Source: Kineosporia sp. A_224
GTDB lineage: Bacteria > Actinomycetota > Actinomycetes > Actinomycetales > Kineosporiaceae
Direction: 5' to 3'
Assembly: GCF_002198655.1 (NCBI RefSeq)
Contig: NZ_MWLN01000197.1
Span: forward strand, 1-35,077
Length of the DNA: 35,077 nt
Every line of letters begins with the position of its first letter. Within the stretch, counting starts at the first letter, position 1. The notes beneath the pieces were generated by a model. That model ran no database searches. It worked only from the letters and a program-made list of their open reading frames with translations, and was not told the origin of the DNA. The position numbers were made by a program, and so were the translations under genes. Shown here one piece after another: positions 30,548-35,056 of the stretch.

Positions 30548-32068
30548 TCAGAGGTTCTCGATCTGGCGGGCGCGCCGCTGGTGCTCCAGCGGGTTGAGCT
30601 CGGCGTCGATCGCGTCGCCGTGCGGTGCGTCGCTGCGCTCGTGCGGCCGGCTCACGAGCATGTAGACGAGGCCGACGGCGATGACGACGACGGCCGAGAC
30701 GCCCAGGCTGTAGCGCTCGTACCAGGCGCCCTCGGCGGCGGCCGTGTACTTCACGAGGACGAAGATCGCCGAGACGCCGTAGACGAGGGCCGCGACCGTC
30801 ACCGGCATGCCCCAGCTGCCGAGCGTGAAGGCGCCGGAGGGCCGCCAGCCCTTGACCCGGGCCCGCAGCGCCGCGAAGACGACCATCTGGAACGCGACGT
30901 AGATGCCGAGCGAGCCGAAGCTGATGATGAGCGTCAGGGCCTTGCCGGGCATCCACTGCGAGCCGATGACGATGGCCGCGGGGATGAGCGCCGCACCGAG
31001 CATCGCGTACGGCGGCACGTGCCGGGTCTGGCTGAACTTCTTGAGGATCCGGCTGCCGAAGATCATGTCGTCGCGGGCGTAGGAGTACGTGAGCCGGCTC
31101 GCGGCTGCCTGCAGGCTCATCGCGCAGGAGATGAACGACAGCAGGATGACGACGAACACGACGCGGGTGCCGGTCTCGCCGAAGGCGTCCACGAGGACGG
31201 TGCCGACCGGGTCGGTGTCCTCGCCGGAGATGACCGCGCCGAAGTCGCTGATCGACAGCAGCAGCGCCATGGTCACGAAGATCGCCGCTGCGCCGCCGAT
31301 GTAGATGGTGCGGCGCATGGACGTCGGGATCCGCTTGCCGGGGTTGGGGACCTCCTCGGCGACGTCGCCGCAGGCCTCGAACCCGTAGTACTGGTAGATG
31401 CCGAGCAGGCTCGCCGCGAGGAACGCCGGCACGTAGCTGCCGGCCCCGGCGCCGAAGCTGTCCGTGAAGATGGACAGGGTCTGCTCGCGGTGGGTCAGGA
31501 GCAGCCAGGCGCCGACGGCGAGCGCGCCGACGATCTCGGCCGCGAAGCCGGCGATCGCGGCGAGCGCGAGCACCCGGGTGCCGGCCAGGTTGATGAACGT
31601 CGCGAAGACGATGAGGCCGAGCGCACAGGCGATCGTCGCGGCCGTCGACGGCTCGACGCCGAGGACGAACGACAGGTACGGGCCGGCGCCGTAGACGACG
31701 CTCGCGATCGTCGAGAGCAGGGCGGCGAGGTAGATCCAGCCCGCCATCCACGCCCAGCGACGGCCCCAGAGCCGGCGGGCCCAGGGGTAGACGCCGCCCG
31801 CGATCGGGTACTGCGCGACGACCTCGCTGAACACCTGCGCCACGAGGAACTGCCCGATGCCGACGATGACGAGGGACCAGATCATCGGCGGGCCGGCGAC
31901 CGGCAGCAGGAGCCCGAACAGGGAGTAGATGCCGACGACGGGCGAGAGGTAGGTGAAGCCGAGCGAGAAGTTCGCCCACAGGCTCATGTCGCGCTTGAAC
32001 TCGGACGTGTAGCCGAGGGCCGCGAGCCGGGCGGCGTCCTCGTCGTGGTGCGCGGCGGTGTCGCTCAA
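30548..32068 (-). CDS. APC-family amino acid/amine permease
   Basis: A twelve-helix cytoplasmic-membrane transporter (506 aa from TTG 32068). Family marks are FSLGFTYLSPVVGIYSLFG in TM1, the TM3 region PIAGGVYPWARRLWG, GFEACGDVAEEVPNPGKRIP (between TM6 and TM7) and SRLTYSYARDDMIFGS (between TM8 and TM9), as in amino acid/choline/GABA-type permeases. The TTG start has AGGAG 5 nt upstream (32074-32078); an upstream ATG at 32137 would place the start inside the predicted -10 and is rejected. It heads a four-gene operon and is divergent from the GntR regulator, with an AT-rich element shared with the P450 promoter between them. The transported molecule is unknown. Confidence 0.92.
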   Translation of the reverse strand: MSDTAAHHDEDAARLAALGYTSEFKRDMSLWANFSLGFTYLSPVVGIYSLFGLLLPVAGPPMIWSLVIVGIGQFLVAQVFSEVVAQYPIAGGVYPWARRLWGRRWAWMAGWIYLAALLSTIASVVYGAGPYLSFVLGVEPSTAATIACALGLIVFATFINLAGTRVLALAAIAGFAAEIVGALAVGAWLLLTHREQTLSIFTDSFGAGAGSYVPAFLAASLLGIYQYYGFEACGDVAEEVPNPGKRIPTSMRRTIYIGGAAAIFVTMALLLSISDFGAVISGEDTDPVGTVLVDAFGETGTRVVFVVILLSFISCAMSLQAAASRLTYSYARDDMIFGSRILKKFSQTRHVPPYAMLGAALIPAAIVIGSQWMPGKALTLIISFGSLGIYVAFQMVVFAALRARVKGWRPSGAFTLGSWGMPVTVAALVYGVSAIFVLVKYTAAAEGAWYERYSLGVSAVVVIAVGLVYMLVSRPHERSDAPHGDAIDAELNPLEHQRRARQIENL

Positions 32069-32073
32069 CGCTG

Positions 32074-32078
32074 CTCCT
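32074..32078 (-). promoter_or_regulatory. Shine-Dalgarno AGGAG that sets the permease TTG start
   Basis: Reads AGGAG on the minus strand, 5 nt before TTG 32068. No such site precedes the alternative ATG at 32137. Confidence 0.7.
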
Positions 32079-32137
32079 AGGACGTCGGGCCGAGTCGACT
32101 CGGCGACGGGACACGCCGCGGGCGGCGATGGCGGCAA

Positions 32138-32166
32138 AACCTATTGCTTCATAGTTCACAGCACAA
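32138..32166 (-). promoter_or_regulatory. Permease promoter with AACTATGAAG element (candidate GntR operator)
   Basis: On the minus strand TTGTGC (32161-32166), 17 nt, TAGGTT (32138-32143). Between the boxes lies AACTATGAAGCAATAG (32141-32156 on the minus strand), an AT-rich island in very GC-rich DNA. The same core occurs in the P450 promoter. On the plus strand TTGCTT and GACTTT could serve the divergent GntR gene. Confidence 0.62.
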
Positions 32167-32238
32167 GACTTTCCCGAGGCGTCCCGGTAACTTCTCCCGG
32201 GGGGCCTCCAGGGGCGACGGCGACGGGCGGGAACGGCA

Positions 32239-33000
32239 GTGGCGGTTGGGGAGCGGGTCAGCGCCCGTACGGCGGTCTTCGCGCCGCTGACCTCAGGCGG
32301 CCGGGCCGAGGCGGTGGTCCAGCGGATCACCGAGTCGGCCTCCCTCGGGCTGCTCGCGGACGGCGAGCAGCTGCCGAGCGAGACCGAGCTCGCCGCGCAG
32401 CTCGGGGTCTCCACGGTCACGCTGCGGGAGGCGCTCGCCTCGCTGCGGGAGCAGGGGCTCGTCGAGACCCGGCGCGGCCGCAACGGCGGCAGCTTCATCC
32501 GGGCCCCCGGCGACCCGACGAAGACCGACCTGCGCTCGCGGCTGTCCGCGCTGAGCGTCTCCGACCTGCGCGACGCCGGGGACGAGCTCGCCTCCGTGTC
32601 CGGCGCCGCCGCCCGGCTCGCGGCGTCCCGGGCGTCGACGGACAACGTCCGCCGCCTGCTCACCCTCGCCGAGCGGATCGGCGCCGCCGCCGGCGTCGGG
32701 GACCGCACGCGCGCGGACAGCCGGTTCCACATCGAGGTCGCCGTCTCGGCGGCGTCCGAGCGGCTCACCCGCAGCGAGGTCTCGCTCCAGGGCGAGCTCG
32801 GCCTGCTCCTGTGGGGCGCCGCGAGCGCGGCCGGGCACGCCGCCGAGTCCGCCGAGCAGCACCGCGCGATCGCCCTCGCGATCTCCCGGGAGGACGCCGG
32901 ACTGGCCCGGGACCTCGCCGAGCGGCACGTCGAGCAGAACATGCACCGGCTCATCGAGGCCCGGATCGAGCTGCACGGAGGTGGCGGGCGTGGTCGTTGA
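32239..33000 (+). CDS. GntR-family regulator with FCD ligand domain
   Basis: A 253 aa regulator from GTG 32239 (weak Shine-Dalgarno; the exact start is uncertain). The N-terminal winged helix is clear: RAEAVVQRITESASLGLLAD, GEQLPSETELAAQLGVSTVT and LREALASLREQGLVETRRGR with GGSFIR. The C-terminal FCD domain has ADSRFHIEVAVSAAS and EQHRAIALAI with a later AERHVEQN, giving the Asp/His set that usually binds a metal and a carboxylate ligand. It diverges from the APC permease and overlaps the Cache-domain gene by 11 bp. The shared AACTATGAAG element in both flanking promoters is its likely operator. Confidence 0.88.
   Translation: MAVGERVSARTAVFAPLTSGGRAEAVVQRITESASLGLLADGEQLPSETELAAQLGVSTVTLREALASLREQGLVETRRGRNGGSFIRAPGDPTKTDLRSRLSALSVSDLRDAGDELASVSGAAARLAASRASTDNVRRLLTLAERIGAAAGVGDRTRADSRFHIEVAVSAASERLTRSEVSLQGELGLLLWGAASAAGHAAESAEQHRAIALAISREDAGLARDLAERHVEQNMHRLIEARIELHGGGGRGR
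32977..32981 (+). promoter_or_regulatory. Shine-Dalgarno GGAGG that sets the Cache gene start
   Basis: GGAGG inside the 3' end of the GntR gene, 8 nt before GTG 32990. GTG 32981 overlaps it and so is a less likely start. Confidence 0.6.
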
Positions 33001-33733
33001 CGGGCCGGGCCGCGGCGGTGCGACGGCCGGCGACGTGGTGGCCGTCGCCGCGCTGCTCGCCGCGCCGGTCGAGCGGATCTTCGGCGAGCTGGGCCCGATC
33101 GCGACCGCGTTCGCCGGGATCGTCGCGGCCGCCGCGGCGGCCGGCCGCCGGCCGGTGGTCGCGGACCTCGCCGGGCTGCGCCCGCTCGCGGACGCCGCCA
33201 TGGGCGCCGACGGGCTGCTCGTCGGGGCCGGGGTCGTCCTCGAGCCCGGGCTGCTGGCGGACGCCGACCGGTACCTCGAGTGGCGCCAGCGCGGCCGCGA
33301 CGGCCGCTACGGCGCCCTCGTGCTCGACGTCGACCCGGCGAGCGAGGACCCGTACGACTACCCCGAGATGGAGTGGTTCCGGGTGCCGCGCGACGAGCGC
33401 CGGCGGATGGTCGGCGGCCCGTACTTCGACTACCGCGGCGCCGACCGGTTCGCGCTGACGTTCGCGCTGCCGGTCGTCGTCGACGGGGTGTTCGCCGGGG
33501 TGGCGGGGGCCGACGTCCCGCTCGCGGTGCTCGAGGCCGAGCTGCTGCCGGTGCTCCGCCGGATCCGCACCCGGGCCGCGCTCGTCAACCACGAGAGCCG
33601 CGTCGTCACCGCGAACACGCCGCACTACGCCACCGGCGCCCGGGTGCGTCCCGGCGGGCCGGGGGAGCCGCTCGAGGTCGTCCCCGCCGTCGAGGACCTG
33701 CCCTGGGACCTGCTCGTCGCCGCTGCGGGCTGA
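32990..33733 (+). CDS. Soluble Cache-domain (PDC-like) sensor protein
   Basis: A 247 aa protein from GTG 32990, overlapping the GntR gene end by 11 bp. The N-terminal 75 residues are helical (ALLAAPVERIFGELG and TAFAGIVAAAAAA). From about 75 a dCache-like fold follows: GLLVGAGVVLEPGLL, RYLEWRQRG, PEMEWFRVP, GGPYFDYRG, RFALTFALPVV and VFAGVAGADVPL, the order of motifs seen in extracellular amino-acid or amine Cache sensors. Here there is no signal peptide, transmembrane helix or output domain, so it looks like a free cytosolic ligand-binding module. Coupling to GntR suggests it helps sense or buffer the inducer. Confidence 0.8.
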   Translation: MVVDGPGRGGATAGDVVAVAALLAAPVERIFGELGPIATAFAGIVAAAAAAGRRPVVADLAGLRPLADAAMGADGLLVGAGVVLEPGLLADADRYLEWRQRGRDGRYGALVLDVDPASEDPYDYPEMEWFRVPRDERRRMVGGPYFDYRGADRFALTFALPVVVDGVFAGVAGADVPLAVLEAELLPVLRRIRTRAALVNHESRVVTANTPHYATGARVRPGGPGEPLEVVPAVEDLPWDLLVAAAG

Positions 33734-33783
33734 CCCGCCGTCCGGTGCGGACGGCACCCCCCGGCCCGTCCGTGGGCCTGCGC

Positions 33784-33836
33784 GTCAACCCCTTGACAAA
33801 TAAAACTATGAAGTCAATGGTTTGGCGTCATGACGC
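33784..33836 (+). promoter_or_regulatory. P450 promoter with shared element and three dyads
   Basis: TTGACA (33793-33798), 17 nt, AATGGT (33816-33821); the predicted start of transcription falls at or next to the ATG (33830), and no Shine-Dalgarno is present, so the mRNA may be leaderless. AACTATGAAGTCAATGG (33804-33820) matches the permease promoter element. Dyads are GTCAA-CCCC-TTGAC (33784-33797), TTGAC-N15-GTCAA (33793-33817) and the 12 bp palindrome GCGTCATGACGC over the start codon (33825-33836). Confidence 0.62.
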
Positions 33837-35056
33837 AGACACCCACCGCCGCGACGCCCCCGCTGTCGTGGGACGACCTCGCGTACCTGCCCGTCTCGGA
33901 CCCCACGTTCTCGGTGCAGTCGGACGCCGTCCGGCAGGCCCGCGCGCAGGGCTGGTGCGCCCGCACGCCCTACGGGCTCGCCGTCCTGCGCTACGACGAG
34001 GTCAACAAGCTCATCAAGGACCGGCGCCTGCGGCAGGGCAGCTGGGCGTGGCCCGCGCACAACGGCGTCACGGGGCGGTTCGCCGACTGGTGGGCGGGCT
34101 GGCTGCTCAACATGGAGGGCGAGGACCACGCCCGGCTGCGCCGCCTGCTCAACCCGGCGTTCTCCCCGCGTGCGCTCGCCGAGCTCTCGCCGACGTTCGT
34201 CGCGCTGGCGAACGAGCTCGTCGACGGGTTCGCCGCGACCGGTGAGTGCGAGTACGTCTCGCAGTTCGCCGAGCCGTACGCCGCCCGCGTCGTCGCGATG
34301 CTCCTGGGGATCCCCGAGGAGGAGTGGCCGGCGATCGCCGAGGTCTCGGCGACGATCGGGCTCGCGATGGGCGTGACGTTCGCCCAGGAGCTGCCGCGCA
34401 TCGAGGACGCCCTCGACCGGCTCTTCGCCTACTGCGACGCGATCATCGCCGACCGGACGGCGAACCCGCGCGACGACTTCGCGACGACCCTCGTGCTCGC
34501 CCAGCGGGACGGCGAGCGGCTCAGCCGGACCGAGCTGCGCGACTCGATGGCACTGCTCGTGTTCGGCGGCTTCGACACGACCCGCAACCAGCTCGCGCTG
34601 GCGATGAAGACCTTCGCCGAGCACCCCGACCAGTGGGCGCTGCTCGCGCAGCGGCCCGACCTCGGCAAGGCCGCGGTCGAGGAGGTCATGCGGGTCAGCC
34701 CGACGGTGACCTGGGTGACCCGGGAGGCGTTGGCGGACTTCGAGTTCCAGGGGCTGCGGATCGAGGCCGGGACGACGGTCCACCTCTTCTCGGAGTCCGC
34801 CGGGACCGACCCCCTCGCGTTCGCCGACCCCGCCTTCGACATCACCGCCGAGGGCCGGGTCCCGCACTTCGGGTTCGGTGGCGGCGCGCACCACTGCCTC
34901 GGGCACTTCGTCGGCCGGATGGACATGTCCGTCGCGCTGCCGATCCTCGCGCGCCGGATGCCCGACCTGCGGATCGGGCCGGGCGCGGAGTGGATGCCGC
35001 TGTCCGGCAACACCGGCGCGCACCGGCTCCCGCTGCTGTTCACCCCGCAGTCCTGA
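33830..35056 (+). CDS. Cytochrome P450
   Basis: Soluble bacterial class I-type P450 of 408 aa from ATG 33830. The I-helix oxygen-activation motif is GGFDTT (246-251; usually A-G-x-D-T-T, so the first Ala is Gly), the K-helix ExxR is Glu285 to Arg288, and the heme loop FGGGAHHCLG (349-358) has the cysteine ligand Cys356. The C-helix segment MEGEDHARLRRLLNPAF (95-111) holds the heme-propionate residues. It needs a ferredoxin and reductase; none is adjacent, though the box FNR/7Fe ferredoxin at 12113-13532 could in principle serve. It appears to belong to the GntR/Cache/APC regulon through its promoter. The substrate is unknown. Confidence 0.93.
   Translation: MTQTPTAATPPLSWDDLAYLPVSDPTFSVQSDAVRQARAQGWCARTPYGLAVLRYDEVNKLIKDRRLRQGSWAWPAHNGVTGRFADWWAGWLLNMEGEDHARLRRLLNPAFSPRALAELSPTFVALANELVDGFAATGECEYVSQFAEPYAARVVAMLLGIPEEEWPAIAEVSATIGLAMGVTFAQELPRIEDALDRLFAYCDAIIADRTANPRDDFATTLVLAQRDGERLSRTELRDSMALLVFGGFDTTRNQLALAMKTFAEHPDQWALLAQRPDLGKAAVEEVMRVSPTVTWVTREALADFEFQGLRIEAGTTVHLFSESAGTDPLAFADPAFDITAEGRVPHFGFGGGAHHCLGHFVGRMDMSVALPILARRMPDLRIGPGAEWMPLSGNTGAHRLPLLFTPQS

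Follow-up and report, generated by a model that had tools for sequence, protein, structure and literature searches.

The stretch of DNA analysed here (hereafter the window) is a 35,077-nt contig, C109, of the Kineosporia sp. A_224 genome (7.2 Mb in 242 contigs). It carries two near-identical AT-rich elements, one at the promoter of an APC-family permease gene and one at that of a cytochrome P450 gene, and between them lie a gntR regulator gene and the gene of a stand-alone Cache sensor. We consider it probable that each element is an operator of the adjacent GntR repressor, and that a small amine sensed by the Cache protein lifts repression of the permease and P450 genes for uptake and breakdown. 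That the permease, the gntR-cache pair and the P450 would form one regulon is well supported by sequence comparison, since the operator precedes these genes in many relatives and seldom precedes the genes inside operons.

Both elements contain AACTATGAAG, at 32147-32156 on the minus strand and at 33804-33813 on the plus strand. These are the only two copies within the window, and dinucleotide shuffles of the window (n = 100) yielded none. The GC content of the window is 74.6%, as against 32% and 27% within the two 22-mers that hold the copies. An earlier interpretation of the window from its letters alone (the sequence-only reading) had described near-identical AT-rich elements at the two promoters, in DNA of about 74% GC where such a match would hardly arise by chance, and all of this is borne out. 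Its gapped alignment of the elements, however, is not the best register. In the best ungapped register common to both, AACTATGAAG-N5-GGTTT, the elements differ at 4 of 20 nt, every difference falling inside N5, and this register replaces the gap. AACTATGAAG forms the core of a 22-bp imperfect palindrome at each place. Putative operator 1 (32137..32158) lies at the permease promoter in the divergent permease/gntR region and putative operator 2 (33802..33823) at the P450 promoter, neither being assigned a strand.

The relatives used for comparison were the best 80 of 149 loci encoding GntR relatives, plus some from further genome and plasmid searches. A 22-nt motif was learned by expectation-maximisation from 69 redundancy-reduced 250-nt regions upstream of gntR, all taken from outside the window and its near-identical relatives; an earlier run on 83 regions, many of them near-identical, gave a mixed best solution and was superseded by this set. 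In the window the 69-region motif scores highest at 33802-33823 (30.3 bits), then at 32137-32158 (29.0 bits), with the next place at 1.6 bits; 1000 column-shuffled versions of the motif all fell short of both scores. The 69 regions included that of L017, a genus member with a second gntR-cache pair. With this region removed, so that the genus was left out, the 68-region motif scores 30.1 bits at operator 2 and 28.8 bits at operator 1, and the next place in the 35 kb scores 1.7. Removing the nearest relatives L021-L023 as well (65 regions) gives 29.9 and 25.1 bits (next 1.2), and a run with fewer restarts, with L017 kept and L021-L023 out, gives 28.0 and 19.9 bits (next -2.4). A motif from 12 Nocardia-range regions alone scores 11.0 and 8.0 bits at the sites, with the next place at -2.6.

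These runs bear on whether the likeness of the elements is a chance similarity or the remnant of a recent duplication. The sites are both rich in A and T, and training on shuffled regions yields motifs whose scores in the window come to 13.2, 15.4 and 11.3 bits, one of them at position 33800. This result weighs against our interpretation to a degree: base composition (AT-richness) therefore supplies part of the score. Comparative data nevertheless contradict both chance and duplication: equivalent genes of other genera have matching sites, and so do those of two Pseudomonas loci and of a Gordonia plasmid. In the whole 7.2-Mb genome, a degenerate pattern that was drawn up once the permease site had been seen finds only the two sites at up to 3 mismatches, with the P450 site at 3. 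A looser genome search with the word given in the sequence-only reading finds the two sites at 0 and 2 mismatches and seven other places at 3. Direct comparison of the two intergenic regions of each locus for common 14-mers returned mostly GC-rich noise, with an AT-rich pair in L063 only. On the shuffles, the genome-wide pattern search and the motif runs made without the window and the genus, we reject a chance match, and regard this whole explanation as almost certainly wrong.

Conservation of the motif along with the gene cluster in related genomes, the lack of which would have refuted the sequence-only reading by its own account, is what the relatives display. Site counts per gene and the 20-bit counts below refer to loci other than the window, L010, L011, L012, L019 and L020, and the 68-region runs also omit L017; L001-L009, L015, L016 and L018 gave no match to the reference proteins. 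Outside the genus, sites of at least 15 bits stand upstream of 63 of 82 gntR genes, 22 of 33 permease genes and 18 of 30 P450 genes. The P450 upstream regions lay outside the training set except that of L101, without which the count is 17 of 29, and 40 shuffled motifs found 1.9 P450 sites on average and 6 at most, compared with 18 of 30 for the real motif. Upstream sites are rare at intra-operon genes: 1/79 for cache, 0/18 for the reductase, 2/28 for the ligase, 1/27 for a gene of a solute-binding-protein-like (SBP-like) product and 0/25 for the Peptidase_C26 (C26) gene. At the higher threshold of at least 20 bits, 86 sites lie in the 48.6 kb upstream of gntR, P450 and permease genes versus 10 in 1.19 Mb elsewhere, and those 10 include other likely targets. 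In two Pseudomonas loci the P450 sites score 28.3 and 33.7 bits, and the ligase genes there also have sites, of 19-32 bits. For the Pot ATPase gene the count is 0 of 27, its start being off since the reference was trimmed; in several loci the DNA separating that gene from gntR holds a site. Clades differ in the wording of the site, which at Streptomyces P450 genes, for instance, reads CTCTA-N4-TAGAG; its place beside TTGAC is often kept (12 of 18). Such a clade-wise drift is what an operator changing along with its regulator would look like.

Several results count against reading the element as a conserved GntR operator. A 15-bit site is missing upstream of 19 of the 82 gntR genes and 12 of the 30 P450 genes, and the near or real misses among the latter are L026 (13.4 bits), L031 (11.7), L076 (11.2), L100, L056 and L065. 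The counts for gntR and for the divergent permease are high partly by construction, because the training regions were themselves gntR-upstream regions. The loci share common ancestry, so the counts are not independent events. Finally, operator 1 is only weakly palindromic, with 10 of 22 self-matching positions, compared with 14 of 22 for operator 2. In six of the siteless loci (L057, L079, L084, L088, L093 and L096), the P450 gene stands behind the permease gene on the same strand.

The layout of the two promoters raises the question of what else the element might be. The P450 promoter (33793..33821, plus strand) comprises TTGACA at 33793-33798, a 17-nt spacer and AATGGT at 33816-33821, and the permease promoter (32138..32166, minus strand) comprises TTGTGC at 32166-32161, 17 nt and TAGGTT at 32143-32138. 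At both, the operator covers most of the spacer and overlaps the -10; operator 2 is followed after 6 nt by the P450 ATG. The 17-nt spacing thus stands as the sequence-only reading had it, and the -35 boxes find support in relatives: of 18 P450 sites of at least 15 bits outside the genus, the 12 mentioned above have the first base of TTGAC 8 or 9 nt before them. At the permease, TTGTGC begins 8 nt ahead of 8 of the 22 sites from other genera; L012 was omitted from these offset counts as a copy of L022. The -10 half of the claim fares worse, as the hexamers are poor at both promoters. A sigma-70 consensus scan of 32000-33900 returned zero promoters, and a terminator scan of it was likewise empty.

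An element that spans spacer and -10 in both promoters, at a fixed offset from TTGAC or TTGTGC in many relatives, could instead be a promoter feature, such as an unusual sigma-factor site or an extended -10, or the site of some other regulator. We think this very unlikely. The element is palindromic, the learned motif having a palindrome correlation of r = 0.75 that was equalled in 4 of 5000 shuffles, and the degenerate pattern occurs just twice in the genome. In addition, the element accompanies gntR-cache in P450-less loci that hold polyamine-type ABC transporter or aldehyde dehydrogenase (ALDH) genes instead.

The GntR operator that we favour would be read by the product of the gene at 32239..33000 (plus strand), a FadR-type GntR regulator in which a winged helix (PF00392, 1.1e-15) is followed by an FCD domain (PF07729, 1.6e-14), both above cut-off. 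The Cache gene (32981..33733, plus strand; PF22673 above cut-off) overlaps gntR by 20 nt and encodes a predicted intracellular amine sensor. Whether GntR represses, and whether it does so through Cache, can be weighed from the same layout. Weak -10 hexamers would suit an activator, and FCD domains of other GntR proteins bind ligands, so that GntR could activate, or its own FCD domain could read the signal while Cache has another task. We judge this unlikely, given that a site over the -10 is unusual for an activator and that 75 of 78 loci have a Cache gene no more than 350 nt behind gntR.

Repression relieved through the Cache protein, as we propose, is consistent with the structure predicted for the latter. 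The protein shows neither a signal at its N-terminus nor a membrane helix; the 19 residues of highest hydrophobicity (mean 1.98, starting at residue 157) form a core beta strand in the AlphaFold2 model, which has a dCache fold and a predicted local distance difference test (pLDDT) score of 91. The closest structures (Z scores of 18.2-19.5) are PctD (choline), PacA, TlpQ (histamine), McpU (putrescine), MkcA, CqsR (ethanolamine, serinol) and McpX, PctD (7prq) aligning at Z 19.5 over 233 residues and 3.7 Å; 6pzj, a chemoreceptor of unstated ligand, is also among the top matches (Z 18.7). The equivalents of the PctD pocket residues W155 and D235 are present in all 85 aligned Cache sequences, window included. 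The S217 column is Thr in 85 of 85, the F188 column is Trp in 89% and in the window, and the M215 column varies (V 43, I 23, T 8, A 5, G 2, E 2, L 1, S 1), with Ala in the window. One column of this alignment does not fit and counts against our reading: that of the cation-pi residue Y206 is Tyr in only 2 of 85, a Tyr being conserved in 81% one column away. A second Cache-like match in the same genome (C63) was set aside as weak, being 35% identical over part of its length only.

The sequence-only reading had named a small amine or amino-acid-like molecule as what the system takes up and oxidises. Of these, a small amine gains support as the likely substrate and signal, because the structural matches of Cache point to amines and the ligase of the wider gene set, taken from L019, has glutamate-methylamine ligase as its nearest PDB relative. 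An amino acid, a urea derivative or a polyamine in place of a small monoamine seems somewhat unlikely to us. The best NCBIfam model for the permease is indeed TIGR03428, 'permease, urea carboxylase system', at a score far under cut-off, and a PotA-like gene of a polyamine-type transporter occurs in 17 of 51 P450-less loci. Amino-acid receptors, however, match the Cache model less closely than amine receptors do (the best match titled as an amino-acid complex has Z 16.6), yet the best matches include the putrescine receptor McpU, and the nearest relative of the ligase argues for a small monoamine.

The GntR-Cache pair itself is already known in outline, because a preprint (PMC10104139) reports, in the sections drawn on here, intracellular stand-alone dCache_1AM domains of the amine type beside a transcription factor (GntR in a figure legend) in two-gene operons of Streptomyces, Nocardia, Rhodococcus, Arthrobacter and Mycobacterium. 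Those pairs resemble ours in the operon of transcription factor and amine-type Cache and in the pocket residues W155 and D235, common to both; no operator, target genes or ligand are stated for the intracellular pairs in those sections.

The genes controlled by the putative operators can be followed further in the relatives than in the window. The permease (30548..32068, minus strand; PF13520, 5e-39) has its likelier start at the TTG at 32068, the mechanical open reading frame (ORF) beginning at 32137. The P450 (33830..35056, plus strand; PF00067) has intact haem (FGGGAHHCLG), I-helix (GGFDT) and ExxR (EVMR) motifs. It ends 21 nt before the window does, and the remaining cassette genes are absent from the window because the contig ends just past it. 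In relatives, the genes 3' of the P450 encode a ferredoxin-like ORF (62-63 residues, identified by visual inspection in four loci), a flavin (FAD) reductase, a glutamine-synthetase-like ligase, a solute-binding-fold protein, a Peptidase_C26 protein and an ALDH, with varying completeness. Linkage was counted in 78 genome-contig loci outside the genus (L019 and L020 were excluded as near-identical to the same-genus L010/L011), and locus ends truncate some clusters, so that gene counts are lower bounds. A P450 (57-86% identical) occurs in 27 of the 78 loci, together with the ligase in 26, the SBP-like gene in 26, C26 in 23, the permease in 22, the reductase in 18 and ALDH in 16; in the 51 loci without a P450, the ligase is found in 0 and the SBP-like gene in 1.

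Altogether, the single regulon drawn up in the sequence-only reading is well supported for the permease, GntR/Cache and P450, at which the operator is conserved, and is not supported for its other members. DUF294 occurs in 2 of the 78 loci, and the two hydrolases, an alpha/beta hydrolase and a metallo-beta-lactamase (MBL) protein, were seen only in the window and the near-identical L019, some loci being too short to show them. We therefore rejected all three as regulon members.

L019, from Kineosporia sp. R_H_3, is the nearest named locus by its GntR (99% identical), and from its gene order we infer that C109 and a 4.5-kb contig of the same genome, C57, are adjacent. C57 carries a ligase 96% identical to that of L019, plus SBP-like, ALDH-like and C26-like genes. 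The ferredoxin and reductase genes probably lie in an assembly gap between C109 and C57, because the best reductase match in the genome is only 59% identical and is located elsewhere. That match belongs to a distant second set on contig C148 (G000:C148:45844-49807 and just beyond), with the reductase at 59%, a ligase-like gene at 34% and a P450-like gene at 31%; no such operator was found in the examined stretches of this set. Within the genus, the second gntR-cache pair of L017 (G012:C470) is 43% and 38% identical to the pair in the window and has its own site of 21.3 bits and an ALDH-like match.

Computation has given the two sites and where they lie at the promoters, how far they are conserved, which genes go together in relatives, and the likeness of Cache to amine receptors. 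On that footing, binding of the sites by GntR, its repressing effect, signalling from Cache to GntR, the order of the reactions and the substrate may be pictured as follows. When no amine is present, GntR would sit on both 22-bp palindromes, covering the -10 and most of the spacer, and transcription of the permease and P450 genes would be blocked. A small amine inside the cell would be sensed by Cache, alone or with the FCD domain, and GntR would release the DNA. The permease would then bring the amine in, and the P450 with ferredoxin and reductase would oxidise it. The glutamine-synthetase-like ligase, the C26 protein and the ALDH would carry it through gamma-glutamylated intermediates.

As such, the gene set looks like amine catabolism of the kind that combines a P450 with gamma-glutamylation. 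The term 'uncharacterised', applied to the system in the sequence-only reading, fits the operator and its target genes, of which no account was found in the literature searched; it does not fit the GntR-Cache pairing, which is in print, or the enzymes, which resemble those of piperidine, morpholine and, reportedly, isopropylamine pathways. The ipu isopropylamine pathway of Pseudomonas sp. KIE171 is said to comprise a permease, a gamma-glutamylamide synthetase, a monooxygenase and a hydrolase acting on N-glutamylated intermediates, a likeness in reported gene roles. Membership of the CYP151 family would call for more than 40% identity to PipA or MorA, and we did not adopt that name for the P450.

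According to the published descriptions drawn on here, the FadR-like GntR protein MSMEG_6700 regulates piperidine and pyrrolidine metabolism, and the piperidine/morpholine loci (pipR/pipA, mor) combine a P450 with ferredoxin, reductase and a FadR-like GntR, as the cassettes of the relatives do in varying completeness, with a Gulosibacter glutamine synthetase gene at a neighbouring locus number (PMC9477822, PMC2018728). Those descriptions mention no Cache partner, and the likeness is one of described gene content. The Streptomyces gamma-glutamyl pathways for poly- and monoamines (EpuRI/EpuRII) likewise use glutamine-synthetase-like amine ligases, EpuRI being described as the neighbouring repressor of the ligase gene glnA4 (PMC6529630, PMC8998196); they differ in that a P450 is not mentioned in the main text of PMC8998196.

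A related cassette lies on the Gordonia plasmid pGKT2 (L099:10449-17460), which bears the xplAB genes for degradation of the explosive RDX. There an FAD oxidoreductase gene and xplA come after gntR, cache, P450 and ligase genes in a row, and a 24.2-bit site precedes the first P450. The identity of xplA was checked against PDB 2wiv, the FAD oxidoreductase gene is presumably xplB, a name given by its position, and the ligase is a 64% tblastn match where no gene is annotated. In Rhodococcus DN22 (L123), a 99.8% identical xplA has another neighbourhood, unlike that on pGKT2, with no annotated gntR-cache pair within 11 kb on either side. Because this nearly identical gene sits elsewhere, the idea that xplAB originated inside the cassette is weakened. 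The DN22 locus also has a 20.7-bit operator-like site (L123:7026-7047) upstream of the likely ATG of the xplAB-cluster permease. In the two Pseudomonas cassettes (L035:10359-12066 and L039:10675-12410, both on the minus strand), the reductase is 45-46% identical to pGKT2 XplB, and a stretch is 48-49% identical to the N-terminal flavodoxin part of XplA.

The solute-binding-fold protein of the cassette (L019:13696-14409; L112:2363-3076, minus strand, in the A_224 genome) has no signal peptide, and in most loci a start is possible at the ligase stop codon, leaving no leader. Among solved structures, an ancestral arginine/glutamine-binding protein is its nearest relative. An Arg and Asp residues that align with those of amino-acid-binding relatives, where they have ligand roles, are invariant in 20 aligned sequences. 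A tentative and rather doubtful proposal is that the split-sensor switch of GntR and intracellular Cache drives a gamma-glutamyl-tagging P450 pathway, in which this protein, recruited to the cytosol, would bind the tagged amine by its glutamyl head; it could be a new enzyme, or a carrier presenting that head to the P450.

What is proposed here is an operator and a regulon, both open to testing, for a regulator pair until now remarked on as a curiosity, in which a sensor of a normally extracellular type has moved into the cytosol. With the operator as a guide, amine-degradation gene sets could be catalogued across actinobacteria and some pseudomonads, and their inducers predicted. It also raises the question of whether the RDX-degrading xplAB genes on pGKT2 respond to amines.

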